From a virus: a DNA stretch of 30,123 bases. The notes under the pieces were generated by a model. It was not told the DNA's origin, did no database searches, and worked only from the letters and a program-made list of their open reading frames with translations. This document shows, one piece after another, positions 297 through 19,725 of this stretch. Made by a program: the position numbers and the translations under genes. The DNA lies in the IMG/VR virus record IMGVR_UViG_3300007511_000091, positions 1 to 30,123 of that record; one strand, 5' to 3'. Position 1 is the first letter of the stretch; the number at the start of each line of letters is the position of its first letter.

Positions 297-627
297 TTTC
301 TTTTCTCCGTATTTCTGTTGCAGATATTTTACCTACATCCTTTGGTGGAACGTGTTCAATTATATCATACCCCACACCACGTCCATAATTAACAGATTCA
401 ATATCAGGTATAATCATAACTTTGACTCTATTTAAATCTATAAGTTCTTTTAATTTTATCTGTAAGTTATCATAAACTTCCTCACAAGTGTAAGGATTGT
501 TTTCATCAGGTAACATATCACGAATACAGATTAAAACATTTTTATCTTCTTTGAGTCTTTGGTCAATTAACCATTGATGTCCTTTATGCCACGGTTGCCA
601 TCTACCCACAAACATTGAGTATTTCAT
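274..627 (-). CDS. Small nucleotidyltransferase (cytidylyl-/NMN-adenylyltransferase-like fold)
   Basis: A 117-aa protein of the HIGH-motif nucleotidyltransferase superfamily, which transfers AMP or CMP from an NTP onto a phosphorylated substrate. The N-terminus reads FVGRWQPWHKGH (residues 6-17), matching the GRFQPxHxGH nucleotide-binding motif of NMN adenylyltransferase (NadM/NadR) relatives. Near the C-terminus, ISATEIRR matches the ISxTxIR motif that contacts the triphosphate. A conserved-looking IPDIESVNYGRGVGY block lies between them. It is shorter than typical bacterial NadM (about 170 aa), so the substrate is uncertain: NMN, a sugar or a lipid head group are all possible. Its start overlaps the end of the APS kinase-like gene by 26 bases, and its end overlaps the thyX start by 23 bases, so the three genes form one coupled unit. 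The fold is well supported; the specific reaction is not. Confidence 0.82.
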   Translation of the reverse strand: MKYSMFVGRWQPWHKGHQWLIDQRLKEDKNVLICIRDMLPDENNPYTCEEVYDNLQIKLKELIDLNRVKVMIIPDIESVNYGRGVGYDIIEHVPPKDVGKISATEIRRKENENNGIR

Positions 628-1012
628 TTATACACTCCTTTATTGGTTTGTCTGTATTTATCTTTACAAAGTTTTCTGTTGGTGGTTCATAGTTTTCAAC
701 ATGATATTCTTTTCGTAAATTTCGTTTAGAATGTAAATAAAAAACTTTACCAATTCTTAAATCACGATAAGGCGAAACTAACGAAACTAAAACTAAATAA
801 CCCTTGTTTTCCATAACCTTCGCCATATCAATAGCAAACTGAATATTCTTTCTACGACCTTTTTCTGAATAATCTTTATTATCTAAAACATCTCGTAAAT
901 CATCACCATCAAGATGAATAGTTTTTTTAGCAGTACAAAATATTCTTTTTTGAAGTTCTTTACACAATGTTGTTTTGCCTGAGCCGGGTTGACCAGTAAA
1001 CCATAGAATCAT
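602..1012 (-). CDS. APS kinase-like P-loop kinase (CysC family, shortened)
   Basis: A 136-aa P-loop kinase resembling adenylylsulfate kinase, which phosphorylates APS to PAPS. Visible family features are Walker A GQPGSGKTT (about residues 7-15), LDGDDLRDVL (about 34-43, the substrate-binding LDGDxxR motif), GRRKNIQFA in the position of the DRxxNIRR motif, and SLVSPYRDLR (about 77-86, matching VSxISPYRxxR). The later region is shortened: the usual CExRDxKGLYxxA lid segment of CysC (about 200 aa in full) is missing, although YEPPTENFVKINTD still matches the end of the family. This could be a minimal APS kinase or a relative acting on another nucleotide or nucleotide sugar. It sits directly upstream of and overlaps the nucleotidyltransferase gene. 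A 53-base AT-rich gap separates it from the hub gene and could hold a promoter. Confidence 0.82.
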   Translation of the reverse strand: MILWFTGQPGSGKTTLCKELQKRIFCTAKKTIHLDGDDLRDVLDNKDYSEKGRRKNIQFAIDMAKVMENKGYLVLVSLVSPYRDLRIGKVFYLHSKRNLRKEYHVENYEPPTENFVKINTDKPIKECINEILNVCG

Positions 1013-1065: not shown

Positions 1066-3999
1066 TTATTTTAAGTAACGAAGAACTCTACGCCGTTCCG
1101 AACCACCAAATTCTGATTTAAACCATGATTCAAGACGACCATATTTTATATGAAATTGTGTTGTAATTTCTTTACGAATTTCAGCACTTAATATGATTCG
1201 TTTTTCATCTCCATCCAGAAAGTTCTTGAAGTTGTACTTTTTTGGGTCCCAATACATGGGATGTTCATAAACCCTATAAACTTCTTCTTCATTGGTTCCC
1301 CATCCTTTCATGGCTTTATGAAGTTTCTCCACGAGTTCTGGTATTTTATCTTTTTGTTCATCGTTCCAGTCATGGTAAATGTTTCTGTTTTCAGCTGTAT
1401 TTGCAGATTCACCCGCCTTTGTTTGAAAACCACCTGTTTCCGTTTCAATTTTTTCTTCTTCCTCTATATCATCTGAAACCTCATTAATCACCTCTACGAA
1501 TTTAAGTCCATCTACGTATTGAATTTGGTCTTTAACTTTATCAGGAATTTCATAACCAGTTTTCTCTGCAAGATCATCAGTATCAACTCTCATTATTGCT
1601 TCAATTTGAGTATTCCATCCATTATTATCTATGGTATGACTTACTGACGTGACTTGAAACACTGCAAACTCTCTAAACAATTCAGGTATATAATCTATAG
1701 TGAAATAATCATATAGTTTTATTCCTGATATTCCACTCAGACTAAAAGTACAAGTAAACGGTATAGGTACATCAACTAATCTAAAAGACCTATCTGTTTT
1801 GTTTAAAAAGTAATCCATTGTTTTTGCATACTGAGGTAACATAGTGCCGTCAGGATTATAAATAACTCCTCTTTCATTCAAACTCTTAGTGGTGTCAAAC
1901 CATAAATATTTTTCAGTCTCATCTTCATCATCAAGTGCCCCTATTACTGCTAATTGTTCATTTGTTTTTTGAGTCGCTCTCAGAGTTTCTGGTGCAGTTT
2001 TTACTTGTAAATTTCCTGTTTTATCTCTGAAGGCCACTTGACCACTCATGTATGGTGTAGTTACATCACCTAATAATTCATCTCGTTGTAGTTTTAGTGC
2101 ATCTATCTCTGCATTTTGCACCTTTTTACTCACATAATTATAACTTTGAAGTGCTGCAAATACTTGCATTTGTTGTGAATCCATATCCTTTTGAATATCT
2201 CCATACACACCAGTTCTTACCTCTGCACTATTTTGACCAGTAAGTGCTGCCTGAGTCATCATTTCAGCAGATATCGTTGTAGAAAAACTTAGTTCTTTTA
2301 ACAATGAGTCTTTACTATAAGCACTAAATTCAAACGAATTACTTGGATTACTTCGTGTGGACTTGTTTCTTGAATCAGGAAAAGTTAGAACATCTTTGAC
2401 TCGTTTTCTCGTTGTTTTTCTATCAAAAACTCCAACTAATGTGGTATCATTTGTACCTTGTAATACATCAAAGTCCCAAAACCCACCGTACTGAGAACTT
2501 ACATATGCCCAAAATGCCTTAATAGAAGAACCAATATCTGATGTACCTGTAAAATATTTTTGAAGAATGTCAGCACTAAAAACAATGTTTCTTATAACAC
2601 CTTTTTCGTTTTGAAAATTATCTGGTTCAAACGTATTAAAATATTTATTAATATTAGAGTATATGTCTATTACATCACGGTACTTTTCAATCCCTTTTGT
2701 GCCTTCTACTTTTTCATAAACACGTTCATCAAACTCAATCGTTTTACCAGGAAAAATAATATCAAAGGATTTAGTGAATAAATTTATATCACTCCTACAT
2801 AAATTTGGTTCAAACCCATCAAAATCCAGACTTCTAAAAGAACTATTAAATCTTGCAATCCAGTTGTCATCCATACCAGTTTTTTCATTTTGTCCTGATT
2901 TTGGTATAATTAAACCAAAGTGGGTATTCAAGATATTATCTTCAAACCAACCCCAAGTACACCAACCCTTTCCATTTGTATGGAAGATTTGTGCTTCGGT
3001 GTTATACAATTTAAACAAATTCAAACCCGCCTGACCAAATTTGGGGTCTTTAAATTTTTCTACTTCTTGAGGACTCGGAAGTTTCACTATGTAGTTATTA
3101 AAATCACCCATTATTTTTTCAAAAGAAGTTTTCTGAGCCTCTTTAATTGATTTTTTTAAGTTTTCTTTTTCTTTATCTACAAGGACTCTATTACTCTCTA
3201 CGTTTTGTATAGCTTTATTCACACCAGCCTGTATTCTTCTTTGTTCTTTTGTTTGATAATCAAGAACTAAACTTGGTGTTTCAATATCATCATTTCTTCC
3301 GATTGGTGATTTAAATAATTGTTGTCCCATTGAAACTATTTCGGTTGTGCATTGATATCTACCACCTTCAATAAGATTGAAATTGAAATTCTTAATCGTA
3401 CCACAAGTAACAAAATAATCACCACCATATTCCACTATCTTTTTTTGATTTGCCTTAAAAAAGTCAAGCATTTCTTCAGAGGTTTCAATGGGGGGAATCT
3501 CTTGTGGTTTTTTAGCAGACCAACCAAACTCAACCATTACCATCCTACCAATAGTTAAAAATGCATTTTGATATATTTCAAATTCATTTATATCACCTAG
3601 CTCCCAAGTGATTGTGGTTGATAATGTGGTTTGATTTAAATAACTGGATTCTATTGAGGTGATTCCATTGTGAGGACGAAAGAGTTTATCAGAATCGTTC
3701 TTTCTAATTGATAATGTTGGTTCAAATGTATTACCTTTAACATACGAGCTTAATTCAAATAACTCTGTTGATTTTACATCAATTACCTCTCCATTTGAAT
3801 CACGTTCAAGATTAGGAACTGCAGAAATGGCATTTGCCCAACAAGTATTATTGAGAATGTTTTCTTGTTGTGTAAGATTTGAAAAATCCGATACGGAATC
3901 AGTTGCCGATCCTAAATATACACCATTTTGTTTATTGAGAGCATCAATTCTTTGGAATAAAGTTCTTTGTATATTTGGATGTATGAAATCACCAAACAT
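1066..3999 (-). CDS. Large baseplate hub-type structural protein with annexin-like C-terminal tail
   Basis: A 977-aa virion protein, probably the central baseplate hub of a contractile tail (role of T4 gp27). An N-terminal region around residues 110-160 (NGITSIESSYL, then GRMVMVEFGWS) matches a pattern I associate with large hub/structural proteins of marine T4-like phages. A later segment, VTSVSHTIDNNGWNTQIEAI, resembles the conserved strand near the end of hub barrel domains. A coiled-coil-like stretch lies around residues 240-290. An acidic linker (DDIEEEEKIETE) then leads to residues 893-977, which look like an annexin repeat: LHKAMKGWGTNEEEV, later IKYGRLESWFKSEFGG. No lysozyme motif is apparent, unlike T4 gp5. 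The ATG lies one base after the LysM gene's stop codon, so the two are coupled. The hub role is inferred from position and motif memory; structural-protein status is firmer. Confidence 0.7.
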   Translation of the reverse strand: MFGDFIHPNIQRTLFQRIDALNKQNGVYLGSATDSVSDFSNLTQQENILNNTCWANAISAVPNLERDSNGEVIDVKSTELFELSSYVKGNTFEPTLSIRKNDSDKLFRPHNGITSIESSYLNQTTLSTTITWELGDINEFEIYQNAFLTIGRMVMVEFGWSAKKPQEIPPIETSEEMLDFFKANQKKIVEYGGDYFVTCGTIKNFNFNLIEGGRYQCTTEIVSMGQQLFKSPIGRNDDIETPSLVLDYQTKEQRRIQAGVNKAIQNVESNRVLVDKEKENLKKSIKEAQKTSFEKIMGDFNNYIVKLPSPQEVEKFKDPKFGQAGLNLFKLYNTEAQIFHTNGKGWCTWGWFEDNILNTHFGLIIPKSGQNEKTGMDDNWIARFNSSFRSLDFDGFEPNLCRSDINLFTKSFDIIFPGKTIEFDERVYEKVEGTKGIEKYRDVIDIYSNINKYFNTFEPDNFQNEKGVIRNIVFSADILQKYFTGTSDIGSSIKAFWAYVSSQYGGFWDFDVLQGTNDTTLVGVFDRKTTRKRVKDVLTFPDSRNKSTRSNPSNSFEFSAYSKDSLLKELSFSTTISAEMMTQAALTGQNSAEVRTGVYGDIQKDMDSQQMQVFAALQSYNYVSKKVQNAEIDALKLQRDELLGDVTTPYMSGQVAFRDKTGNLQVKTAPETLRATQKTNEQLAVIGALDDEDETEKYLWFDTTKSLNERGVIYNPDGTMLPQYAKTMDYFLNKTDRSFRLVDVPIPFTCTFSLSGISGIKLYDYFTIDYIPELFREFAVFQVTSVSHTIDNNGWNTQIEAIMRVDTDDLAEKTGYEIPDKVKDQIQYVDGLKFVEVINEVSDDIEEEEKIETETGGFQTKAGESANTAENRNIYHDWNDEQKDKIPELVEKLHKAMKGWGTNEEEVYRVYEHPMYWDPKKYNFKNFLDGDEKRIILSAEIRKEITTQFHIKYGRLESWFKSEFGGSERRRVLRYLK

Positions 4000-5759: not shown

Positions 5760-7457
5760 TTATCCGTTAATCATTCTTTTAAAAAGTACTTCAACTGCAG
5801 CTATTGCTGGATTTCTACCCATTGCTGTGGACGCCGCTATTTCAGCTCCCTCAACACCACTAAACTGTGATTTGAGATTATCCCCCATGGCCTTTGTTAA
5901 TTGCTTTGTTGCTTTTGTTAATTCTTCTGTTGCACTTATTGATTGTTGTTGTAGTTTAGTTTCTTTTTCTTCTGTGCTTATTTCTAAAGGTTTTCCTGCA
6001 ACCAACCTACTTAATTCACCCACTTCAACTCCAATTGCAGATGCTAATTTTTTCCTTTGTATTGCATTTAATCGAGTGAATTCTTCTGCACTTCCCAATT
6101 GTTGAATTATATCGTTTGTGGCCCCCACGATATCATTATCTATGGCTAACATTCTAGCCCTATCAAAGTTTATATTCCTACCAATCATTAACGAAGCTTC
6201 CATAGCAGAAGTTATAGAGGTTTCAAAATCTAATAATGAGTCTGTAATTTTCAAAGTTGTTGCCAACTCTACACCCATCTTTGCTGCTTGAACTGCTGCC
6301 ATAGCAATATTTTTCATACTTTGGTCGGTGTAGGCTGCAAACTCTTCTGCACTTGATGCTATATCTTGAAGTACTACACCACTATCTACAAGATTATCTC
6401 CAGCCAACTCAGTAACTGCATTAACTAATTCCAAACCACCCGTGAAATCAGTATTGTTTATATCGGAAAATAACCTAGCTATATTTGCTATGTTTTCTTC
6501 TGTTGCACCTGATTTGATTGCTAACATTGTTAAGTCTTTTACATTTTCTTTATTTACATCACGAGTACCTCTTGTGGCTTGGAAAATTGCCTTTGCACTT
6601 TCTCTAATATCACCTCCAAGAGCTGCAGCCTGTAGTTGAAACACTGGCATAGTTTCAGTAACAGCTGCAAGTTTTATAGAAGTTCCAAGACCTATATTTA
6701 ATTCTTCAGAAAAATTTTGTGCTGCCTTAAATGACTTATATAAATAACCAACTACAGCTATTAATGCTGCTGCTATGGCCATTATTGGATTGGCTTTAAT
6801 TGCACGTGCAAACTTCTTAGCACCAGCCACCATACCTTTTAATGCATCAACACTTGAACCCAACGTCCCCAATCCCTTATCAAGAAGTTTATTACTGTTT
6901 TTAACTTTATCAGCAACACCTCCAACCATTTCGTGTTCTTGTTGTAGTAAACCTATCCTTTTTTCAAGAACTTTTCTTTCTTTAGGAGCAAGCTTTAGAG
7001 CTTCTTGTTTTAGTTTTGAAATTTCTTCTTGAACCGCTTTAGAATCATAATCCACAATATTTTTAGCCGATATGCTTTCAAGAACCTCTTCCTCTTTTGC
7101 TGCGATTTTTTCTAATACGGATGAATAATCACTACTGAAATCTTTGGTTTTTCTAATGGAGTGAGATATAAGTCTATTTGCGTTTTGACTTTTTCTTTCC
7201 TCGTTAACCTTTTGTGCAAGACTATTTGTTGTATCACTTAATAAACTTTTGTGAGTTCTACGTATTTTGGTTACGTCCTCTTGTATTTTACGTTTTTGTT
7301 CTTCTTGTTTTAAAACTTTTGCGTTATCAGCTAATATTTGTCTACTTGTTTTTAAGAATTCTTCATTTGCTGTGGCACCCTTACCTAACTCGGCATTAAT
7401 TTTGGTTTCGAGGTCTAATTGGTCTTGTTTTAGTTTTAGTAGTTGCTTTTCATCCAT
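5760..7457 (-). CDS. Tail tape-measure-like protein
   Basis: A 565-aa protein with the expected build of a tape measure. A long charged, Lys/Glu/Gln-rich helical and probably coiled-coil N-terminal part covers residues 1-195. A hydrophobic, membrane-like segment (NPIMAIAAALIAVVGYLYK, about 223-241) follows, then an Ala-rich helical C-terminal half with repeated short helices. Its length is close to that of T4 gp29 (590 aa), which sets tail length. Its position, after the tube gene and the tail-assembly chaperone-like pair and before the baseplate hub genes, is the standard tape-measure slot. The start used (MDEKQ) has an AAGGA box about 14 bases upstream, a rather long spacing, so a slightly different start is possible. 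No lytic transglycosylase or peptidase motif was seen. Confidence 0.72.
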   Translation of the reverse strand: MDEKQLLKLKQDQLDLETKINAELGKGATANEEFLKTSRQILADNAKVLKQEEQKRKIQEDVTKIRRTHKSLLSDTTNSLAQKVNEERKSQNANRLISHSIRKTKDFSSDYSSVLEKIAAKEEEVLESISAKNIVDYDSKAVQEEISKLKQEALKLAPKERKVLEKRIGLLQQEHEMVGGVADKVKNSNKLLDKGLGTLGSSVDALKGMVAGAKKFARAIKANPIMAIAAALIAVVGYLYKSFKAAQNFSEELNIGLGTSIKLAAVTETMPVFQLQAAALGGDIRESAKAIFQATRGTRDVNKENVKDLTMLAIKSGATEENIANIARLFSDINNTDFTGGLELVNAVTELAGDNLVDSGVVLQDIASSAEEFAAYTDQSMKNIAMAAVQAAKMGVELATTLKITDSLLDFETSITSAMEASLMIGRNINFDRARMLAIDNDIVGATNDIIQQLGSAEEFTRLNAIQRKKLASAIGVEVGELSRLVAGKPLEISTEEKETKLQQQSISATEELTKATKQLTKAMGDNLKSQFSGVEGAEIAASTAMGRNPAIAAVEVLFKRMING

Positions 7458-7763: not shown

Positions 7764-7982
7764 TTATAGTTGTCTTTGAATAGATTTAGGTGGTTCTTGT
7801 GTGGTTGAGACTTTATTATATGCAGCACTTTCTTTCTCTTTAATCTCAACCAACTTATTCATATAATATCTTCTCCAATGAACTGGCATATTATACAAAT
7901 CATTAAAAGTGAATCCATTACTAAAATGACACAATGAGAATATTTCATCGTGTATTGATTTTTTATAATTCTGACTTAGGCC
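7764..7982 (-). CDS. Frameshifted C-terminal extension of the tail assembly chaperone (no own start codon)
   Basis: Read from the GGC codon at 7982, this frame is open for 72 codons and ends at the TAA at 7764. It contains a coherent protein: SIHDEIFSLCHFSNGFTF, then LYNMPVHWRRYYMNKL, then a Lys/Glu-rich tail. This resembles the second half of phage tail assembly chaperones, which follow the first half in another frame. Upstream in the same frame a stop codon sits at 7998-8000. There is no ATG until well inside the conserved part, so independent initiation is unlikely. The frame overlaps the end of the gp26-like gene, and a run of seven T residues (7983-7989, minus strand) lies in the overlap. 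A +1 or -2 shift there would fuse the two into about 324 aa. Confidence 0.72.
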   Translation of the reverse strand, partial: GLSQNYKKSIHDEIFSLCHFSNGFTFNDLYNMPVHWRRYYMNKLVEIKEKESAAYNKVSTTQEPPKSIQRQL

Positions 7983-8739
7983 AAAAAAACGTAACCCCTA
8001 TCGGTATATCTACCGTATGGGGTTCTCCTATTCCACTAACATACTCCGTGGTCATATCTACATCTGGGGTGATTGACTTTACATGCTTTCTAAATTCTTT
8101 TGTATCTAAGGCAAGAAACTGATTATCAACAAAGTTATTTATTGTTTTTTTAGTTGTGTCTCCATCTACAGAAATAAGTTGTTGTTTTAAACGAGTGGTA
8201 AGTGTTGGGTCAACACCTGTAACATTTGATATTGATTTTAAAGCTTTGACTGCTTGTTCTATTTCTGATTCATCTTTGTGAGTTAATAATTTAAATTCAA
8301 CAACTCGTTTAGAATGTGGTAATTTAAATTCAAATTTATTTTCACCACTTTCAAAAGTAGAATCTTTTGGTGATTTAAATTTCAAAGTACTTAAATCCAC
8401 CACGATTTCCTTTTTAAGTTCAGAATCAGGATCTATAATCTCTACGGTATAATCTTTACCATATCCCAAAATTCTAGCACCCAACATAATTGCATTCTTA
8501 TCACCAATCAACATATCATCTAACTTAATTGATTTATCTGGAATTATAGACTCAAACAATTTATCTAAAACAATTCCTTTTTGAATCAGATTAGTAGAGG
8601 TTAAAATATCCTCTTCTTTTGCAGTCATATATTTTATCTCTATAGTACCACTTGAAAGTGGACTATCTTTTGAATATAATAATCCTTTTGAAGGCAAATC
8701 TAATACCTCAGTAGGGAAATCATATTGATTTTCAGCCAT
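7963..8739 (-). CDS. gp26-like baseplate / tail assembly protein (zero-frame product)
   Basis: A 258-aa protein resembling the T4 baseplate hub assembly protein gp26 (Pfam T4_baseplate family, from memory). The landmark is the N-terminal block FPTEVLDLPSKGLLYSKDSPL followed by KYMTAKEEDILTS and LIQKGIVLDKLFESII. The conserved zero-frame C-terminus is VTFFWPKSEL. T4-like gp26 is around 200 aa, so this is somewhat longer. The start has an AGGAG box 7 bases upstream. The gene lies between tube and tape measure, the classical slot for the tail assembly chaperone that is made in short and frameshift-extended forms. The overlapping frame after the poly-T run fits exactly that arrangement. Whether it acts as a chaperone, a hub component or both cannot be told from sequence. 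Confidence 0.8.
   Translation of the reverse strand: MAENQYDFPTEVLDLPSKGLLYSKDSPLSSGTIEIKYMTAKEEDILTSTNLIQKGIVLDKLFESIIPDKSIKLDDMLIGDKNAIMLGARILGYGKDYTVEIIDPDSELKKEIVVDLSTLKFKSPKDSTFESGENKFEFKLPHSKRVVEFKLLTHKDESEIEQAVKALKSISNVTGVDPTLTTRLKQQLISVDGDTTKKTINNFVDNQFLALDTKEFRKHVKSITPDVDMTTEYVSGIGEPHTVDIPIGVTFFWPKSEL
7983..7989 (-). promoter_or_regulatory. Candidate programmed frameshift site (T7 run)
   Basis: On the minus strand the gp26-like reading frame passes through ACG TTT TTT TGG. A Phe-tRNA on the second TTT can re-pair perfectly after a +1 or a -2 slip, and both give GGC CTA AGT and continue into the start-less downstream frame. It lies 18 bases before the zero-frame stop codon. A canonical -1 slippage would not enter that frame, so any shift must be +1 or -2. 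I did not identify a stimulatory pseudoknot. Confidence 0.6.
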
Positions 8740-8967: not shown

Positions 8968-9459
8968 TTAGAACGACAATACTGCGTAATCGTAACGAAG
9001 TGTTAGAGTAATATCAGCAACGTCCGTTGTATTTGAAAAATCTAAGTCATTAAAGTTTGCTGATTGAATAAATGCACCATGTAACACCCACTCTTCAACC
9101 TTATCACCTACTGGCCCCAATAGATTAAATCTAATCTCTTTTTTATACATATCAGAGTATCCCTCACGACCTGTTACAGCTTCATGATGTTGTCTTACCC
9201 ATTCCATAACTGCTTGTGCTCCACTTGGAACGATTGGATCATATAGAGTTACTTCTAATTGTTCCCACGTAGCTTTACCTTTAAGATATCTCTTTACATT
9301 AATATGATGTAATTCTATTTCATCAAAAGTAATGTTAGGTCTTGCCATTGCCTTTACAAAGTAAGATGGTATATCTTCAATGTACATGATGAACCTATTT
9401 TTAGTTTTTGGTTCAAACGGGGTAAAAAAGATTTCATCCTGGTTTAGAATTTCGGCCAT
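8968..9459 (-). CDS. gp19: Tail tube protein gp19
   Basis: The tube protein polymerises into the inner tail tube inside the contractile sheath and conducts DNA. Starting at the ATG at 9459 (MAEILNQDE) the product is 163 aa, the length of T4 gp19. This start is preferred over the longer frame (ATG at 9486) because AGGAG lies 7 bases before it. The sequence is typical of the family: FFTPFEPKTKNRFIMYIEDI, then KATWEQLEVTLYDPI, MEWVRQHHE, and a C-terminal FNDLDFSNTTDVADITLTLRYDYAVL. It follows the sheath gene, but a strong terminator separates the two, so it probably has its own promoter; an ATATTTAT-type motif lies at 9499-9510. Confidence 0.93.
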   Translation of the reverse strand: MAEILNQDEIFFTPFEPKTKNRFIMYIEDIPSYFVKAMARPNITFDEIELHHINVKRYLKGKATWEQLEVTLYDPIVPSGAQAVMEWVRQHHEAVTGREGYSDMYKKEIRFNLLGPVGDKVEEWVLHGAFIQSANFNDLDFSNTTDVADITLTLRYDYAVLSF

Positions 9460-9498
9460 TTTCATTCTCCTGTTAATGCCGTTCAAATACTATTACAT

Positions 9499-9639: not shown

Positions 9640-11991
9640 TTATTCAGGAAATGTTGCTCCTGTTGGTTGAACAATGAAGTCCAAAACAATAAACTCAGCT
9701 GTTCTTGTAGGTTGAATGAAGATTTGTCCTCTCAACTCATTTCTATCAACAACATCTGGTGTATTATTTGAATCATCCATTACCACTCTGAATGCACTTA
9801 GACCACTATTAGCCTGTACTGAATTCAAATATGGATTAACAATACCTAAGAAACGATTTCTCGTTGCTGCAGTATTTTGTTCAAACACTAAGAATCTTGA
9901 AGAACTTGCAATAAACTTACGTAAAGCGATTAACAATCTTCGTACATTGATTCTATCAAGTGCTGATGGTTTTCCTTGTAATGTTTTTTGTCCAAACACC
10001 ACTACACCTTGTTGTGGGAATGAAGCTATTGGATTAACACGACCTTCATAAAGTGTGTCTCTTTCTTTATGTGTTAGTCTTGTTTTTGCTTCCAATACAC
10101 TTGTCAATCCACCACGATTCAAACCTGCGGGTGCGAACCATTCGTGTGCTACACTATCGGTGTTAGCAATAACACCAGGAATCACAATTGATGGTGGAAC
10201 CCAAATTGGTTTATTTTTGACTGAATCAAGAATCTTAACCCACGGATAATAAGTAGCCGCGTAATTAGTATCTAAGGACTTAATATCACCAACAGCGTTA
10301 GTGACTGAACGTCCCCATCTTGAACCATCCATTACGTAGAAACAATCTGCTCTATCTTCTACTTTTGAGATAGCGTGATTAGTAACTTGAGTATGATACT
10401 CGTGTATAATACCAGGTGTTACCAACATATTCATATCAAACTCATCAGGATTACTTACAGCGTTGATTGCTCGCTTGTAAGCTACTGTACCACTTGCTTC
10501 TGCATTAGTACAATCAAATCCTTGTTGGTTTGTTGTTGAAATATCAGTACCAGTTGCTTTCAATGTTGTTGGATTATCTCCATCAAATCCACCTTGAAAT
10601 GGAACAACGAATTTTCTCTGTTCTTTAGCGGATAGTGTCATTGTAATTGCCTCTGAACCATCAGAATATGTGTCTGCTCCGATTTCACTTGCATCTGAAT
10701 GACCATACATATTTTCTAAAGAGAACACAACATTAATACCATTTCCAGCACTTGCGGGTGATGGAGCTAAATATTGTTGGTTATCTTTACTATCAAAATC
10801 CCAACCATAATATTCATTTGAATCAAACCTACCAGAACCAGTACTAATGTGATCTGTAAACTGATTTGTTTGGAAACTAGCACTTGGAACTGAAGTGGTT
10901 TGTAAAGTTGGATTAGTCACTGCTGCAAATCCATGAGGTAATGCATCTCCACTAACACCTTCAAGTTCTGTTTCATAATCACTAATATAGATATGTGTTG
11001 ATTTATTTGGCCAATCACCATTGTAAGTGAGTTTACCATTTGAATCAATAGTTACATATCTATCACCAATTTGTCTTGGTAGGTAGTTTACTGAATCAGG
11101 ATCAAAGTTAAGATTTGGAAACTCTTCTACTAATTGTCCATCATCATTTTCACCTGGATTATTCGTTAATACTCTAAGTGTAAAATCACCATAATCACTA
11201 CCAGCAATATCTTCTTTTGCTCTTAAATCAGCAATACCCAACTTGTATTTATTATTAATATCTGTACCATGTGAACGTGTATTAACTTTAAACAAATTCT
11301 TTCTTGCTCCACCAATCAATTGAGAAACAATATAAGGTGTAGTTGCAACTGCGTAATCGTGTGTGAAATCTTCTCCACTACCACTTGCTAAAGATGCAGT
11401 TGAGTTAGTTGAAGAAAATCCCTTTTCACATTGAAACGTTTCAAAGTTTTTATACACATACAAATCTTTATTGGTGTCTTGTGGATCTGAAGTAAATACT
11501 TTTGTAATGTAACTATCAGAACCAGTATCAAAGGATGCTGTATATGCTGTTCCTGCTACAGTAAAGGCAAATGAACTCCAAGTTTTTGTAGTTGTACTTA
11601 GTGATGCACTTGTTGGGCCATCAATGTCTAAACTTGGACTGTTTCTTGAGGGTTTTAAAACTGCCGCAACTCCGTTATGAGTAGAACTTGAAACACTAAT
11701 ATAAAGTGATTCAGTTTGGTATCCTCCAATACCTAAAACTCTTACTATAGTTACAGCTGGTGCACCATTATCAAAGTATTCTTGAACTGTATATGGTACA
11801 TAAAATCGTGTATCTAAACCACCGAAAGTATTTTCAAATTCAGAAAAACTCGTTAGAGTAGTTGGAACGAACGCCGGCCCTTTAACTGTTGGCCCGACTA
11901 TTGCTGCTCCAATTTCTGCCACACCTTGTGGTAAAAATGAAACATCTCTTTCTCTGGTAAATACACCTGGACTAACGATTCGTTCAGCCAT
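9640..11991 (-). CDS. gp18: Contractile tail sheath protein gp18
   Basis: The sheath protein surrounds the tail tube and contracts to drive it through the host envelope. The 783-aa product is longer than T4 gp18 (659 aa). The N-terminus MAERIVSPGVFTRERD and GAAIVGPTVKGPAFVPT are typical sheath sequences. The C-terminal domain is well conserved: RLLIALRKFIASSSRFLVFE, NPYLNSVQANSGLSAFRVVMD, and GQIFIQPTRTAEFIVLDFIV. The middle (about residues 95-450) is Ser/Thr/Asp-rich and variable, matching the surface-exposed insertions of T4-like sheaths, and accounts for the extra length. AGGAG lies 6 bases before the ATG. The gene is closed by a terminator at 9571-9601. A T4-type TATAAATA octamer in the right orientation lies 131 bases upstream, inside the preceding gene. 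Confidence 0.95.
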   Translation of the reverse strand: MAERIVSPGVFTRERDVSFLPQGVAEIGAAIVGPTVKGPAFVPTTLTSFSEFENTFGGLDTRFYVPYTVQEYFDNGAPAVTIVRVLGIGGYQTESLYISVSSSTHNGVAAVLKPSRNSPSLDIDGPTSASLSTTTKTWSSFAFTVAGTAYTASFDTGSDSYITKVFTSDPQDTNKDLYVYKNFETFQCEKGFSSTNSTASLASGSGEDFTHDYAVATTPYIVSQLIGGARKNLFKVNTRSHGTDINNKYKLGIADLRAKEDIAGSDYGDFTLRVLTNNPGENDDGQLVEEFPNLNFDPDSVNYLPRQIGDRYVTIDSNGKLTYNGDWPNKSTHIYISDYETELEGVSGDALPHGFAAVTNPTLQTTSVPSASFQTNQFTDHISTGSGRFDSNEYYGWDFDSKDNQQYLAPSPASAGNGINVVFSLENMYGHSDASEIGADTYSDGSEAITMTLSAKEQRKFVVPFQGGFDGDNPTTLKATGTDISTTNQQGFDCTNAEASGTVAYKRAINAVSNPDEFDMNMLVTPGIIHEYHTQVTNHAISKVEDRADCFYVMDGSRWGRSVTNAVGDIKSLDTNYAATYYPWVKILDSVKNKPIWVPPSIVIPGVIANTDSVAHEWFAPAGLNRGGLTSVLEAKTRLTHKERDTLYEGRVNPIASFPQQGVVVFGQKTLQGKPSALDRINVRRLLIALRKFIASSSRFLVFEQNTAATRNRFLGIVNPYLNSVQANSGLSAFRVVMDDSNNTPDVVDRNELRGQIFIQPTRTAEFIVLDFIVQPTGATFPE

Positions 11992-12433: not shown

Positions 12434-15400
12434 TTAATCTTTTAATTCATCTATTTCATTTAAAAGTTGTAATGATTCTACTTTTGCGTTCAACTCTTTG
12501 ATTGATTCTATCAAAACGGGAACTAATTTATTATAATCCACCGATTTAAATTTTCCTCTACCATTCAATCCTTGTTGTTCTTTCACAAGTTCAGGAATGA
12601 CTGCTTCAACTTCTTGTGCTAAAACACCAACATCGTGTCCTCTATCTTTTCGTTTCCAATCATATTCTACACCACGAAGTTGCATCACAGTATCTAAACC
12701 ATATTTCATATCTGTAATGTTTTCTTTCAAGTTCATATCGGATGCCACGGTAGATGAGAATGCAACAACGTCACCATCAGCGTGGAATGTTCCACCACTT
12801 GCCAATCTAAATTCTTCTACATTATTTAAATAAACTTTAATATTATCATCAGTTCCGAAATCAATCCAATCACCACTAGCATCTCTACCAACTTTTAATG
12901 ATGTGTTATAGATAGAGGATATACCTGTTTGTGCTGCCGATGTACTTAATGCAACAGTACCATCACCAGTAGCGGCGTCTATACCAGTTCCTGCTATAGT
13001 ACTTGCTTCCATAACTGCCGGCCCACTATCACCACCAACTAATATTTGTCCATTAGTACCCATTACAGCTGTATTAACTGTGTCAGTTCCACTATCTTGT
13101 GAAATCAATACTGCTTTATTTGCTAATGAATCTGTTCCTGTTCCACCACTACCTACAGCTAAAGGTGTTTCACTAAGAGTAGCGGATGCGAGAGTTGCAA
13201 CTGTACCAGATCCCGATATAGTATCAACGTCTAAATGTCCAAATGAACCAGTAGAAGTTGAAATACTACGAAAATCTCCACTTGCACTTACATCACCATT
13301 AATCACAATTCTTTCAGCACTATTGCTTGTATCAATTGTTAATACTGAAGTACCACCAGCTCCTGCGTCAAATGTAAGTGCCGCGGCGGTATTATCAATC
13401 AAATCAATGTCAGTTGCTTGTCCAGTTAAAACAATATCACCCGTAGAGGTTAATCCTGCGAAAGTTGGTGCTGCATCAGTTGTTAAATCTTGATTAACAG
13501 TAGAATTTGCCTCAATAGTTATAGTTTTTAATCCATCTATACGATTTTGTCCTATTGTATTTCCATATACAGCAGAACCCGTAATTGTTCCTGTAGAGTT
13601 AACGTTACTAACACCATCTATAGTTCCACTATCAATATCAACATTAGTCATATTTTGACTATCAAAATCTATTGCTCCAGCTGCTTGAAATGCCCCAAGT
13701 TTGGTAGCTGTTAATGTATCTACACTAAAGGTTAAATCAGAGTCATCCGATAATACTCCATTAGCTCCTGCAAATACTACTCTACCACTTGTTAAACCAT
13801 CAGGAGTAATTGTAGCTGCTCTTAAATCATAAGCACCTATATCAATATCGGCTCCAGCACCTTCCATAATTGCTTCGTTTTGAGCTGCTGATGTTGTAAG
13901 TGTTCCTGCTGAGACATTTAATGTTTTGCCTGAACCTACCGTAACATCAGAAGTTGCTATTGTAGCCCCATCTATAGTTCCACCATCAATGTCGGCCGTT
14001 GTTACCGTACCTAAGTCTGCAATTGTAGTACCATTAAAAGTTGAATTTACATTAACATCAAGTTGTGTAGATCCAGCAGTAGTAATAAATGTTATCTGTT
14101 TAGTTGAACCACTTATGAAACTTAATGCATCTGCTAAATTGTGCCCAAGAGTAATCTTGTTTTTGGTTGTATTACCACCAAAATTAATATCTAATCCACT
14201 TGCTGCGTCTGCAATACTAATACTATCAGCATCAATATCTCCAACGTTGGCAATATTACCATCAGAAAAATCCACTCCTGCGAATGTCGGTGATGCATCC
14301 GTTGTTAAATCTTGATTTACAGTTGAGTTAGCCTCAATTGTAATTGTTTTCAGTCCATCGGTTCTATTTTGTCCTAAAGTAGTACCGTAAACAGCTGAAC
14401 CTGTTATAGTTCCAGTTGAAGTTATATTACCTACACCAACAATATTTCCTGTAAGTTCAAGATTTCCTACGGAACTACTCATATAAGATGAACCATCACC
14501 TATCCATAAGGCTGAACTACCACTAATTAATCCATCATTTCTTAATTCACCACCATCTATATCAATACGACCTGCTACGTGAGCTATACTCATATTCCCA
14601 TTATTAAAATTAATTACTCCACCATTACCTAAGAATAAGTCACTAAACATTTTTGAAGTAGTACCAAGTGCTATATCATCATTTGTTTCTGGTTCAATAG
14701 TTCCATCTTTGATATGTAATTGGTCTGCGCCTGCTGCTTCAAACGTTATAACGTCATCAGCTGATGCTCTAATTGATGTATCTAAATCATCATCTAAATC
14801 TATTCTACCTTGACCATCTAAAGTTACATTGTCAGTAAATACATTTGACCATTGTGTTCCACTTGCACCTAATGTATATGCACTATCTGTACCGACTGTA
14901 AAGTTTCCAACAATATCACCCGAACCTGTTATTTGTAAACTACCAGTTACTTTATGGGTGTCGTCTGTACTATCACCCAATATATTACTACCACTTGCAA
15001 AAGAAGCCGTTATATAACTTACAGAAGAACTCACAATAATTTCTTGTGCGGTTAACGTTCCTGTAAGAGTTGCGGATGCAAATTGTACATCAGCGTCTTT
15101 TGTTAAATCTTGGTCTACAGTAGCACTATCTTCTACTGTTAATGTTTTTGATGCTCCACTATAAGTTAATGTTCCACTATTTCCATCACCAATTGTAAGT
15201 GATTCATTCATTGTAAGTGTATTTTCTTGTCCAGCTCCTGTCAATACAATATTTTGTCCATCACTAACGGTTAAATCTTCATTTAAAGTAAGTTGATGTA
15301 ATCCTGTATCAGTATTATGTTTTATTTCTGTAAAGTGTCCAGTTGAACCACTAATACCACCTGATGCTGTCATATATCCCTCAATAGTCATTCCAGCACT

Positions 15401-17284
15401 CATCGCAACTTTTTCTGCGTTATTTGTTGTAACAATTTCTAATATACCAGTCTTACCACTTGCGTCAAATGATAATGCAGAAGCGTTATTATCAACTAAA
15501 TCTACATCCGTAGCTTGTCCAGTTAAAGTTACATCCCCAGTAGAAGTTAATCCAGCAAAAGTTGGTGATGCATCACTTGATAAGTCTTGGTTGACTACTG
15601 AGTTTGCTTCAATACTAAGTGTTTTTACACCACCTGCTGTATTTTGTCCAATAGTAGTACCATAGACAGCTGAACCACTAATGGTTCCATCAGAAGTTAT
15701 ATTACCAACGTCTGCTATTGTGCCAAAAGTTACATTGGCGTCCGTAGTTAAATCTTGATTTACAGTTGAATTGGCCTCAATACTGATTGTCTTCAAACCA
15801 GTAGCTGTATTTTGACCGAGTGTTGTTCCGTAGACGGCTGAACCACTAACCGTACCCGTTGAGGTAACATTACCAACACCCAAAGTACCTAAAGTGGCGT
15901 CTGCATCTGTAGATAAATCTTGGTTTATAATTGAATTTGCTTCTATCGTAATGGTTTTCAATCCATCTGTACGATTTTGTCCAATAGTAGTTCCATAAAT
16001 TGCTGAACCACTAATAGTACCCGTTGAGGTTAAGTTTGTTGCCGATAGTGTAGCTCCACTAAATGATAAATCACTATCCTCAGATAAAAGACCATTAGCA
16101 CCATATATAGCCACTCTACCATCAGTTTGACTATCTGCTGTTAAAGTACTTGCTCTAAATCCATGTGCTCCAATATCTAAATTACCACCTGCTGTCAATG
16201 AGGTTATTCCATCTACAGTTCCACCATCAATATCTACAGAAGTAAAAATACCATTTGATGCAGAAACAGTTGAACCTGTAATATTAGTAAGATTAGCACT
16301 TCCACCATCAATATCTACTGTACCGAAAATACCACTTGATGCAGATACTACTGAACTCGTAACATTTGTAAAGTTAGCTGTTGTTTCTGAACCAAGGCCT
16401 ATCGGTACTCCATCAATAGTACCACCATTAATGTCTACTGTGGTAATAGTTCCTAAATCTGCTACAGTATTTCCAGCATTTGTCCAATTACCAATAATTT
16501 CATCTGTAGTAATTGCTCCAAATGAACCAGTTGATGTGGATGAACCACTAATGTTTCCGTCACTAAAAATATTACCACTTGCATAAATATCAGAACCAGT
16601 GATATGTCCACTTGAAGAAATACTTGTATTACCTACAAGTGTTGTAAATGTACCTGCGGCTGCCGATTCTCCACCAATAACTGCCCCATCAACTTCACCA
16701 TTATTAACATAAACTGTTACTGGATCTCCATCAGTACCAAGTTGGTCAATATAACCTATTCCATTTACATAAATATCTTTCCATTGTTGTGAGGCTTTAC
16801 CTAAGTCAAACGCGTTATCATTATTTGGAATTAATGAAGATGATACTTCAGCCTCAAACACCAAATCATCAGTATCTGCATCACCAAGTGTAATTTGACC
16901 ACCAAGTGTCAAATCACCAGTTACTTTAGCATTACCTTGTATATGTAGTGAAGAACCACTTATAATTGAACCACTAACATTTGCAACAATACCAGTTGAA
17001 CCACTTGTAAATATAACACCATCTTCATCTGCCTTGATTTGTTGTAAAATAGTTCCGTCAGGTCTTACAAAATTTATAGAGGAAGTTGCAACATATATTT
17101 CTTGCCAAACATTAGAAGTACTACCTAAATCATAAGTTTGTGTTGAAGATGGTACAAAATCAGCACTTGCAGTAATTTTACTTGTACTTTGATTAAGTGC
17201 TAATATAGAACCAGTTGATTCAGATGTAATCCCTTTAGGGTTGTGTAATTCAGCGTTAGTTAACGCACTATGTAGTTTAGCCAT
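12434..17284 (-). CDS. Giant tail fibre protein with C-terminal S74 intramolecular chaperone
   Basis: A 1616-aa fibre protein, very rich in Ser, Thr, Gly, Ala and Asp, built of short beta-strand repeats with recurrent xxGTISGSxxYGTT, GGTIDGxxI and VTSTGT motifs. It holds five copies of a roughly 45-aa module containing YGTTIGQNRTDGLKTITIE. A module near the N-terminus (WKDIYVNGIGYIDQLGTDGD) is shared with the 1219-aa fibre. The C-terminus (residues 1515-1616) is a Peptidase S74 / intramolecular chaperone domain: SDMNLKENI with the Ser-Asp cleavage motif, GVEYDWK, VGVLAQEVEAVIPELV, VDYNKLVPVLIESIKEL, then a coiled-coil end. Such domains trimerise the fibre and then cut themselves off. It may be the distal host-binding fibre; the receptor-binding tip would lie just before residue 1515. 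GAGGAA precedes the start. Confidence 0.9.
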   Translation of the reverse strand: MAKLHSALTNAELHNPKGITSESTGSILALNQSTSKITASADFVPSSTQTYDLGSTSNVWQEIYVATSSINFVRPDGTILQQIKADEDGVIFTSGSTGIVANVSGSIISGSSLHIQGNAKVTGDLTLGGQITLGDADTDDLVFEAEVSSSLIPNNDNAFDLGKASQQWKDIYVNGIGYIDQLGTDGDPVTVYVNNGEVDGAVIGGESAAAGTFTTLVGNTSISSSGHITGSDIYASGNIFSDGNISGSSTSTGSFGAITTDEIIGNWTNAGNTVADLGTITTVDINGGTIDGVPIGLGSETTANFTNVTSSVVSASSGIFGTVDIDGGSANLTNITGSTVSASNGIFTSVDIDGGTVDGITSLTAGGNLDIGAHGFRASTLTADSQTDGRVAIYGANGLLSEDSDLSFSGATLSATNLTSTGTISGSAIYGTTIGQNRTDGLKTITIEANSIINQDLSTDADATLGTLGVGNVTSTGTVSGSAVYGTTLGQNTATGLKTISIEANSTVNQDLTTDANVTFGTIADVGNITSDGTISGSAVYGTTIGQNTAGGVKTLSIEANSVVNQDLSSDASPTFAGLTSTGDVTLTGQATDVDLVDNNASALSFDASGKTGILEIVTTNNAEKVAMSAGMTIEGYMTASGGISGSTGHFTEIKHNTDTGLHQLTLNEDLTVSDGQNIVLTGAGQENTLTMNESLTIGDGNSGTLTYSGASKTLTVEDSATVDQDLTKDADVQFASATLTGTLTAQEIIVSSSVSYITASFASGSNILGDSTDDTHKVTGSLQITGSGDIVGNFTVGTDSAYTLGASGTQWSNVFTDNVTLDGQGRIDLDDDLDTSIRASADDVITFEAAGADQLHIKDGTIEPETNDDIALGTTSKMFSDLFLGNGGVINFNNGNMSIAHVAGRIDIDGGELRNDGLISGSSALWIGDGSSYMSSSVGNLELTGNIVGVGNITSTGTITGSAVYGTTLGQNRTDGLKTITIEANSTVNQDLTTDASPTFAGVDFSDGNIANVGDIDADSISIADAASGLDINFGGNTTKNKITLGHNLADALSFISGSTKQITFITTAGSTQLDVNVNSTFNGTTIADLGTVTTADIDGGTIDGATIATSDVTVGSGKTLNVSAGTLTTSAAQNEAIMEGAGADIDIGAYDLRAATITPDGLTSGRVVFAGANGVLSDDSDLTFSVDTLTATKLGAFQAAGAIDFDSQNMTNVDIDSGTIDGVSNVNSTGTITGSAVYGNTIGQNRIDGLKTITIEANSTVNQDLTTDAAPTFAGLTSTGDIVLTGQATDIDLIDNTAAALTFDAGAGGTSVLTIDTSNSAERIVINGDVSASGDFRSISTSTGSFGHLDVDTISGSGTVATLASATLSETPLAVGSGGTGTDSLANKAVLISQDSGTDTVNTAVMGTNGQILVGGDSGPAVMEASTIAGTGIDAATGDGTVALSTSAAQTGISSIYNTSLKVGRDASGDWIDFGTDDNIKVYLNNVEEFRLASGGTFHADGDVVAFSSTVASDMNLKENITDMKYGLDTVMQLRGVEYDWKRKDRGHDVGVLAQEVEAVIPELVKEQQGLNGRGKFKSVDYNKLVPVLIESIKELNAKVESLQLLNEIDELKD
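13456..13597 (-). repeat. Fibre module copy (YGxTIGQN type), nearest C-terminus
   Basis: Encodes SAVYGNTIGQNRIDGLKTI followed by VNQDLTTDAAPTFAG. It is one of nine copies across three fibre genes, and here Thr is replaced by Asn in YGNT. Confidence 0.85.
14275..14421 (-). repeat. Fibre module copy (YGTTLGQN type)
   Basis: Encodes SAVYGTTLGQNRTDGLKTI followed by VNQDLTTDASPTFAG. It is a single copy in the middle of the 1616-aa fibre. Confidence 0.85.
15551..16030 (-). repeat. Three near-tandem fibre module copies
   Basis: Three copies of the 45-aa module lie in series at about 15551-15695, 15722-15865 and 15885-16030, spaced by short linkers. They encode YGTTIGQNTAGGVKT, YGTTLGQNTATGLKT and YGTTIGQNRTDGLKT. 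The DNA copies are similar but not identical, consistent with an old duplication kept in register or homogenised by recombination. Confidence 0.85.
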
Positions 17285-17325
17285 TGAAATTCCTCATATA
17301 TATTAAATATTTCATTACCATAATT

Positions 17326-17745
17326 TTATTCTTCAAAAAATATAAGTTCACCTGAATTTGTGGTTACAAAATTGACATTAAGTATGGTTAAAGTATCCGA
17401 ACCATCACTTGTTACCATCACAGCCTTTTCTAGTGACTGTATTGTTATTGCATTACCACCATAATCGTCTGCCTCAACTCTTCCAAACGAACCAGTTGAA
17501 GTAGATGAACCACTTATTACATTTAAACTTCCTGAAAGAGCTCCACCCCAAGAACCACTAACATCTGCTGATGTTGCGAGTCCCGTAAGATTACTACCAT
17601 CACCATAAAATGAACTTGCACTTACTTCAGATCCACTAATATTTCCCGTAGACCGAATTTCACTACCAGTTATTGCTCCTGATGTAGAAAGTGATGACAG
17701 ACTTGCATCACTACCAGATACTATGACTTTTTTCCAACTTGGCAT
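17326..17745 (-). CDS. Short fibre-like / connector protein
   Basis: A 139-aa Ser/Gly/Thr-rich protein starting MPSWKKVIVSGSDASLSSL. It contains ASSFYGDGSNLTGLA, a motif shared in looser form with the 620-aa fibre (FKGDGAGLTGLS), and SGSSTSTGSFG, shared with the 1219- and 1616-aa fibres. It ends in a short beta-rich tail (TLTILNVNFVTTNSGELIFFEE). It is likely a small fibre subunit or adaptor that trimerises with, or connects, the long fibres. The start is supported by a GGGAG box. The gap before it (17746-17854) holds an ATATTTAT-type motif and a 7-bp hairpin. Confidence 0.75.
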   Translation of the reverse strand: MPSWKKVIVSGSDASLSSLSTSGAITGSEIRSTGNISGSEVSASSFYGDGSNLTGLATSADVSGSWGGALSGSLNVISGSSTSTGSFGRVEADDYGGNAITIQSLEKAVMVTSDGSDTLTILNVNFVTTNSGELIFFEE

Positions 17746-17827
17746 TTAATATATCTCCCTACGGTTGGTAACTCTTTGTGAGCCCACTTCCTATTTCATT
17801 TAAAATAGGCCAATAAGTTTTCTGTTT

Positions 17828-17838
17828 AATAAATATCA
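17828..17838 (-). promoter_or_regulatory. Candidate promoter motif before 139-aa fibre gene
   Basis: The minus strand reads TGATATTTATT, sharing TGATATTTAT with the sites upstream of gp13 and gp19. It lies about 83 bases before the start codon in a 109-base gap, one of the longer gaps in the fibre block. Confidence 0.35.
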
Positions 17839-17854
17839 TAAAATTCACTTTTAA

Positions 17855-19717
17855 TTACTCCACTCTTATCCATATGTCGTCTGTAGTGGTGTTTACCCAT
17901 TGTTCACCGACACCATAAGAACCTGAAGTGGTATCAGGATTATGGTTTGCCGTTACTGTCGTGGTAACGTATGCAGTTGGTGTTACCGCAGTTCCATCTG
18001 CTGCAACTCCTTTAGCAACTGCCCATCTTTCATCTTGTGTGTCGTGATATATAGCAGAACCACTATCTGCTGCTGAACCACTCTGTACAATCAAACCACC
18101 ATCAACATTTGATGCTGCTGAACCAGTTGCTGTAAACACGAAAGCATCTTGAACTGTCAGATTCGTGGTGGATAATGTAGTGGTATCACCTTGTACTGTT
18201 AAATCTCCAGTCAAGGTTAAATCTGCAAACGTGGGATTTGCATCAGTCGTTAAATCTTGGTTTACCGTTGAGTTAGATTCAATTGTAATAGTTTTCAGTC
18301 CATCAGTTCTATTTTGTCCGATTGTTGTACCGTATACAGAAGAACCACTAACTATTCCAGTAGAAGTTACATTACCAAAACTTACATTATCTGAAGTTCC
18401 AACTCCGATTGAAGTTCTTAATGTTGCTCCACTCTCTGCTACTGGGTCTGTTGTTCCATCACCAACTATCATTTCACCATCGGCGAGAACTGCCATCGCA
18501 GTTACTGCACTTGTTCCACTACCAAGTAGAACACCACCATCAGTTAATGTACTTGCTCCTGTTCCACCATGAGCAACTGCTAAATCTGTTACTAATGTGG
18601 CTGATTCTGCTGTAAGAGCACCACTTGAACTTATTATTGAACCTGTTATCGCTGCAAATTGTACATTTGCATCGGTTGTTAAATCTTGGTTTACTACTGA
18701 GTTTGACTCAATCGTTATAGTTTTCAATCCGTCAGTTCTATTCTGTCCTATCGTAGTTCCATAAATTGCTGAACCACTAATCGTACCTTTTGAAGTTATA
18801 TTACCACCTAAATCGGCTGTAGATGCACTAATATTTCCATTACTACCACTTATATAAGTGCTTCCAAAAGAACCTACAAATATATCTTTACTACCACTAA
18901 TAGTTCCACTTGTTTCAAATCCAGCATTAAATGAACCACTTACATCATCTGCTATTTGTACTGAACTACTAACTAAAGTTGGTTTACCAGTTATATCTGC
19001 AAATGCAACTGAAACTTCTTCTGAAGATAATCCTGTTAATCCTGCACCATCACCTTTAAATGAAGATGCTGTAATTGGGCCTCTTACATCAAGACCCGTT
19101 TTTAATGTTTGTCCTACATATTGATATGCCGTCATAAATACAACTTCGTTTGATGCTGGATCGTGAGCAGAACTTAAAAATTGTAATACACCAGTTTTAT
19201 AATCAAATATATAATCATTACCAGAGACTTTATCACTTGCTTCAAGTGAACCAGTTTGATGACTTTGTGTATAAGTTGAAGATTTATAAACAACTACACC
19301 ATATCCAGGAGTAGAATCTTCTGTAGTTGCATTTGCTAATGCAGAAGTTGAATATTTAGGTGATATAAAACTTGTTTGTTGATTATCATCAATTAACTGA
19401 GCACCAATTCCACTATCGCTTCCAGTTGGACTTAAAAAGAACCAAACTTCATCATTTACATTAGAAGGTGTTAACTTATGTCTATACCAATATTTCATCA
19501 AGTTTGAACCTGATGCTTGTTGAATTGATCCGTGTTGAGAACTTCCACTAAATGGTAATCCAGTTGAAGGAATATACTGTGCTTGTGTGTAAATTTCTTC
19601 TTCTCTTAAATCAAGAACATTAGTAAACGATTCTTGTGCAGTCGTAAATGTGTTATGCGTATATCTTCTTGACGCTAACAGTCTACTTGATTTTGAACCT
19701 GAATCTATAAATCCCAT
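17855..19717 (-). CDS. Tail fibre protein (620 aa) with two shared fibre modules
   Basis: The N-terminal 210 residues are a distinct, less repetitive domain (SRLLASRRYTHNTFTTAQES, then MKYWYRHKLTPSNVNDEVWF and FDYKTGVLQFLSSAHDP), probably the attachment or structural head. Residues about 215-500 are Ser/Thr/Gly repeats with two copies of the YGTTIGQN module and a GGVLLGSGTSAVTAM-EMIVGDG-AESGATLRTSIGVGT module shared with the 1219-aa fibre. The C-terminal part (GDTTTLSTTNLTVQDAFVF, later VDGGLIVQSGS, YGVGEQWVNTTTDDIWIRVE) resembles the short knob-like ends of marine phage fibres. There is no S74 chaperone. A GAGAGAG box precedes the ATG; the gene begins 8 bases after its neighbour's stop, so the two are co-transcribed. 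Confidence 0.85.
   Translation of the reverse strand: MGFIDSGSKSSRLLASRRYTHNTFTTAQESFTNVLDLREEEIYTQAQYIPSTGLPFSGSSQHGSIQQASGSNLMKYWYRHKLTPSNVNDEVWFFLSPTGSDSGIGAQLIDDNQQTSFISPKYSTSALANATTEDSTPGYGVVVYKSSTYTQSHQTGSLEASDKVSGNDYIFDYKTGVLQFLSSAHDPASNEVVFMTAYQYVGQTLKTGLDVRGPITASSFKGDGAGLTGLSSEEVSVAFADITGKPTLVSSSVQIADDVSGSFNAGFETSGTISGSKDIFVGSFGSTYISGSNGNISASTADLGGNITSKGTISGSAIYGTTIGQNRTDGLKTITIESNSVVNQDLTTDANVQFAAITGSIISSSGALTAESATLVTDLAVAHGGTGASTLTDGGVLLGSGTSAVTAMAVLADGEMIVGDGTTDPVAESGATLRTSIGVGTSDNVSFGNVTSTGIVSGSSVYGTTIGQNRTDGLKTITIESNSTVNQDLTTDANPTFADLTLTGDLTVQGDTTTLSTTNLTVQDAFVFTATGSAASNVDGGLIVQSGSAADSGSAIYHDTQDERWAVAKGVAADGTAVTPTAYVTTTVTANHNPDTTSGSYGVGEQWVNTTTDDIWIRVE
18223..18365 (-). repeat. 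Fibre module copy in 620-aa fibre (second in protein order)
   Basis: Encodes SSVYGTTIGQNRTDGLKTI followed by VNQDLTTDANPTFAD. It lies after the AESGATLRTSIGVGT module. Confidence 0.85.
18651..18796 (-). repeat. Fibre module copy in 620-aa fibre (first in protein order)
   Basis: Encodes SAIYGTTIGQNRTDGLKTI followed by VNQDLTTDANVQFAA. Its core is identical in protein to the second copy, although the DNA differs at many third positions. Confidence 0.85.
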
Positions 19718-19725
19718 ATCTCTCT

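Follow-up and report, generated by a model that had tools for sequence, protein, structure and literature searches.

A major review describes the G/GT frameshift as widely conserved in long-tailed phages, with T4 as the exception. The T4-like tail chaperone genes gp26/gp51 (phrog_150, phrog_634) were named by Vladimirov, Gautam and Davidson (2022), who, as relayed by a paper citing their work, also reported T4-like TAC-N genes with poly-T −1 signals. A two-gene chaperone had earlier been proposed for 0305phi8-36. We found no description of a +1 shift in gp26, or of its 5′ stem-loop, in the open-access literature. Here we analyze a 30,123-nucleotide (nt) stretch of viral DNA (IMG/VR record IMGVR_UViG_3300007511_000091, positions 1 to 30,123; the window), which contains a gp26-like gene followed by an open frame lacking a start codon. 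Comparison with related loci strongly supports a programmed shift into the +1 frame of this gp26-type tail assembly chaperone. We consider it very probable that two tail chaperones would be made from one start by +1 frameshifting, with a 5′ hairpin probably providing the push. The elements involved are listed below; coordinates are positions in the window, and all listed genes are on the minus strand.

7963..8739, minus strand: gp26-like gene, unshifted product TAC-N of 258 amino acids (PF12322 E 3.2e-10, phrog_150 E 9.8e-13; confident AlphaFold2 model, see below)
7993..8024, minus strand: 5′ stem-loop whose 3′ arm stops 3 nt short of the T run (covariation; excess stability over synonymous shuffles)
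7979..7989, minus strand: slip site TTT TTT TGG CC, at which the P-site TTT at 7986-7984 would re-pair one base forward (fixed in relatives)
7764..7988, minus strand: start-less +1 frame encoding the C-terminal (T-like) domain, 74 codons plus stop (conserved FFG..Y..IF...Y.MP..R..Y)
7963..7982, minus strand: short zero-frame tail past the slip site, ending in TAA (the stop follows the slip by 5-12 codons in 109 representatives)

The zero frame ends ...GTT ACG TTT TTT TGG CCT AAG TCA GAA TTA TAA (stop at 7963-7965), and the second frame, which is +1 (equivalently −2) relative to it, reads TTT TTT GGC CTA AGT... and encodes FFGLSQNYKKSIHDEIFSLCHF...YNMPVHWRRYYMNKL... up to a stop at 7764-7766. 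Both frames meet at a T7 run at 7983-7989, as an earlier note on this DNA had claimed, and a +1 fusion indeed yields the 324-amino-acid product proposed there. The 72 codons given for the second frame hold when counted from GLSQ; the open part comprises 74 codons from FF. In the window, no ATG precedes the YNMP motif in the shifted frame, and this frame closes three codons ahead of FF.

A first IMG/VR scan returned 80 relatives with 53-100% identity, and further scans extended the set to about 300 loci. The earlier note had looked to relatives for a conserved slippery run and for a second frame trailing gp26-like genes out of frame, and both were found: all IMG/VR relatives from the first scan that reach the junction carry T7GGCC, the downstream frame, where found, is always +1 there and homologous to that of the window, and +1 is the longer downstream frame in 266/280 loci. 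The 14 exceptions include some that are open in both frames and five very distant loci that favor −1. Among 208 unique junctions, TTT TTT TGG CC accounts for 127 and TTT CTT TGG CC for 11, including the cultured Flavobacterium phage immuto; the remaining classes are TTT TTT TAC/TAT CCT, the SP-15-like TTT/TTC TTT CGN and a few others.

Codon use at the junction is constrained in the +1-type relatives, reduced to 113 representatives at 80% identity (109 used in some counts). TTT serves as the first Phe codon in 112/113, and the second is TTT or CTT in 113/113, against a 76% share of TTT elsewhere in the gene; synonymous conservation is limited to about five codons (−1 to +3). The codon preceding the run never ends in T (0 found versus 47 expected from codon use in the 113); as a T at this position would create a −1 slip site, its avoidance would block a competing −1 slip. 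The junction thus differs from −1 sites of the X_XXY_YYZ type, its second frame being +1 and its preceding codon never NNT. In 60/109 representatives the +1 frame opens just one or three codons upstream of FF, which pins the location of the shift. Cyanophage-type relatives have NNT TTT TTC in 76/76 cases, forming the standard T_TTT_TTC heptamer with the second frame at −1; phiM9 carries TTTTTTG, and the cyanophage set lacks the 5′ stem-loop. Because the preceding T is always present in the −1 set and never in the +1 set, T-run register and slip direction go together.

Relative to synonymous recodings, which leave the protein unchanged, the 36 nt ahead of the run form a far more stable fold (mean z is −1.59, standard error (SE) 0.14, n = 113); z is 0.01 to −0.37 in nine other gene windows and +0.41 at the stem-loop position in the −1 clade. 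Excess pairing is centered at −10 to −4, and the 3′ arm of the stem ends most often at −5 or −4. In 18 window-type sequences, 90.6% of the stem is paired and 14 two-sided changes are found versus 4.0 in shuffles (0/500), with slid-register controls in the same sequences reaching ≤45% pairing. Two outer positions change from C-G to U-A, and one inner position varies among C-G, U-A and A-U. A set of 37 sequences picked by protein motif only contains 34 two-sided changes versus 12.2 in shuffles. The effect is equal across the T7GG, T7AC and TTTCTTT classes (z is −1.65 in TTTCTTT) and weaker in the SP-15-like clade (z is −0.80, SE 0.13). The stem-loop is under selection beyond protein coding and is new here; an Rfam search returned no match. 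According to a review (PMC5009743), constructs with a stem-loop placed 4 nt 5′ of a −1 site can show less −1 and more +1 shifting, and on T4 gene 60 ribosomes are propelled with the help of a 5′ stem-loop; the same forward push probably acts here. A Shine-Dalgarno stimulator is not conserved, with such motifs in 33% of sequences, below one control window. Structure 3′ of the run gives a weak clade-wide signal (window +40..+76, z is −0.85, SE 0.13), and one possible hairpin lies past the run in the window:

7929..7953, minus strand: weakly supported candidate for a 3′ hairpin within the +1 frame (9-pair stem, 30-54 nt past the T run)

The sequences themselves show the two frames and their conservation, the constraints on codons and the covarying stem-loop, and from these we infer a scheme for the direction and stimulation of the slip, its efficiency, the ratio of the two forms and their function. 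Most ribosomes would read to the nearby zero-frame stop and make the 258-amino-acid TAC-N form. In a minority, with the second UUU in the P site and UGG in the A site, tRNA-Phe would slip forward by one base (UUU_U), re-pair with UUU and continue with GGC, giving a 324-amino-acid TAC-NC form with an added three-helix domain. The stem-loop, its 3′ arm ∼4 nt upstream of the T run, would probably re-form behind the ribosome and bias the slip forward. If lambda G/GT is a guide, the long form would link the tube protein with the tape measure.

The earlier note had left the direction as +1 or −2; the shift into this frame stands, and its direction can be narrowed by the relatives. In a −2 frameshift as in Mu, the P-site tRNA-Phe would move back two bases on the T run and the product would carry one extra Phe. 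The T7 run permits re-pairing after −2 as after +1 in the window, and −2 is likewise allowed in most close relatives. In eight TTC TTT loci and in LR756508, a 484-kb phage with the junction AAC TTT CTA, only +1 re-pairs, giving UUU or UUC for tRNA-Phe, whereas −2 would place it on UCU or ACU. As these relatives are unable to re-pair after −2, +1 slippage of tRNA-Phe is favored, and the re-pairing two bases back in all members that defines the Mu type is not seen. The distant SP-15-like phages carry TTT CGN, a +1 site of the UUU_C type, for which (UUU_CGU) a +1 shift was proven by mass spectrometry in another system (PMC3498833), and the CTT to TTT re-pairing in the TTT CTT class is of the release-factor-2 type. 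We therefore regard a −2 shift as unlikely. Programmed transcriptional slippage, with RNA polymerase dropping one U or adding two on T7 and the nascent hairpin assisting, would suit the order of hairpin and U run, and a hairpin-dependent case is known from a Roseiflexus insertion sequence (PMC5009743). Yet relatives with TTTCTTT, TTCTTTCGT or TTTCTATTC keep the frame arrangement without a long run, the TTTCTTT class retains the hairpin at full strength, and the hairpin, with a spacer of 3-4 nt, is not flagged as terminator-like; slippage by the polymerase is thus very unlikely.

Annotations of Microcystis phage Mel-JY01 and of immuto carry an overlapping or truncated small open reading frame (ORF), as might be expected if the second frame were a separate gene, started on its own or by re-initiation. 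A start conserved in relatives, which the earlier note named as a possible refutation, was not found: 10 of the 109 representatives lack ATG in the shifted frame, 2 lack ATG, GTG and TTG altogether, and the conserved FFG residues precede any start. We find two independent genes highly implausible. The note had also raised a sequencing error splitting one gene, a natural concern for a T7 homopolymer in metagenome data. Every close locus, drawn from many samples, has the same T7, as does the complete Mel-JY01 genome, and other slip sites with the same frame arrangement occur in cultured phages. Because T7GGCC is present in every junction-reaching relative, including an identical locus assembled from another sample (L001), such an error is excluded for practical purposes.

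Several observations weigh against a +1 slip promoted by a 5′ stem-loop. The T7 run of the window is itself compatible with −2; the stem register varies between subgroups; and relatedness inflates nominal significance despite the use of 80%-identity representatives, as the statistics ignore residual relatedness. LIS04 (TTT TTT AGT) is a poorer fit, and a few relatives (TTA TTT/TTC AAT CCC AGT; L201) lack both UUU_U and UUU_C. The subgroup without these sites (L191, L195, L196 and L201) has AAT CCC AGT in common and may shift +1 at CCC_A. One locus, L088 (LR756511), is placed inside the +1 clade by the tree, yet has GGT TTT TTC (T_TTT_TTC) and a second frame at −1, and is likely a reversal to −1. 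A further locus within or beside the +1 clade (L296) has a −1 second frame and no clear slip site.

The gene product matches PF12322 with 40.5 bits (curated cut-off 24.5) and so belongs to this family. Comparing the +1 clade with the cyanophage/T4 gp26 profile in hhalign gave 98.1% probability (E 9e-14), with the alignment extending up to the same Phe-Phe. The shifted frame aligns with the cyanophage gp51-type domain at moderate strength (probability 78%, E 1.7e-5), supporting its assignment as a gp51-type C-terminal domain. As single sequences, T4 gp51 and gp26 found no hhalign support against the clade profiles; the T4 link is drawn from Pfam/PHROG profiles together with profile-profile comparison. 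In T4, gp26 and gp51 are both PF12322 members, with phrog_150 covered to position 280 by gp51 and to 235 by gp26; gp51 is therefore the long form, that is gp26 plus the C-terminal domain. T4 thus encodes the unshifted and the extended form in two genes on opposite strands, whereas the window has one gene with a +1 shift. The link of gp26 to the lambda gpG/gpGT class drawn in the earlier note is right and has already been published for T4. In our tree the −1 group plus T4 is split from the +1 clade with full support, and T4 gp26 and gp51 group as long-branched sisters (support 92/86). The two parts were folded separately with AlphaFold2 because a joint alignment misplaced the C-terminal rows. 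The gp26-like part (predicted local distance difference test score (pLDDT) 88) is a structural match to SP-15 and other T4-like gp26/hub proteins, and the C-terminal domain forms three helices (pLDDT 87). A fold search against the PDB with the gp26 model returned nothing significant.

In cyanophages, phiM9 and Aeromonas 65.2, gp26 and the downstream small ‘gp51’ comprise the same two domains with a Phe-Phe junction. The ‘gp51’ of cyanophage S-RIM8 and of OLIVR6 (L297 4732-4869, L299 4720-4860) are annotated from internal starts and resemble the end of gp26 as read after a −1 shift. Lambda G/GT and other chaperone frameshifts occupy the same position between tube and tape measure but are mostly −1, and −2 in Mu; we claim no sequence similarity to them. 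A +1 shift at TTT-CGC has been predicted in the tail chaperone of the haloviruses HF1/HSTV-2, which resembles UUU_CGN in SP-15-like phages (PMC7230728). These are archaeal viruses with no stem-loop reported, and the likeness lies in the slip site; on examination, the HF1 chaperone was not shown to be a gp26 homolog. The bacterial gene prfB shares the P-site slip onto an overlapping UUU (compare CTT TGG in immuto), but relies on a stop codon in the A site and a Shine-Dalgarno sequence, where the A-site codon here is TGG or TAC.

On the minus strand the gene order is sheath (9640-11991), tube, a 50-amino-acid ORF, the gp26-like gene, the start-less frame, a 61-amino-acid ORF and a probable tape measure gene. 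The neighbors that define the position are as follows.

8968..9486, minus strand: tail tube gene, upstream neighbor (phrog_4542 E 3.7e-30)
5760..7457, minus strand: probable tape measure gene, downstream neighbor (by position; immuto has an annotated tape measure at the corresponding place)

The gp26-like gene thus lies at the G/GT-type position between tube and tape measure that the earlier note had assigned to it, the tape measure itself being placed by inference; the profile searches that gave the PF12322 and phrog matches returned no family for 5760..7457. Elsewhere in the window, a hub-like protein (1066-3999, minus strand) contains an annexin-like stretch at residues 890-909 (KAMKGWGTNEEEVYRV; Pfam Annexin E 0.008, below cut-off). 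Three large fiber-like ORFs (12434-23385, minus strand) have repeated modules in common, for example GSAVYGTTIGQNRTDGLKTITIEAN, and the end of the first resembles, by eye, a self-cleaving tail-fiber chaperone. Two genes at 274-627 and 602-1012 (minus strand) appear by eye nucleotidyltransferase-like and adenylylsulfate-kinase-like, a possible auxiliary metabolism.

Taken together, our comparisons indicate that the T4 gp26 family itself uses frameshifting, in two directions. The +1 shift appears to operate throughout a sizeable and ancient set of T4-related phages; other long-tailed phages mostly slip backward. We lean modestly toward a wider account in which a natural, deeply conserved +1 shift would be driven by a 5′ stem-loop, the family would have switched among +1, −1 and two-gene arrangements, and T-run register and the presence or absence of the stem-loop would together set the direction. 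In both these phages and the cyanophages, the small downstream ORFs, commonly labeled gp51, probably do not represent genes of their own, and their annotation would need correction. As 5′ stem-loops favoring +1 are so far known mainly from synthetic constructs, these genes would offer a natural test system for the action of a structure behind the ribosome.
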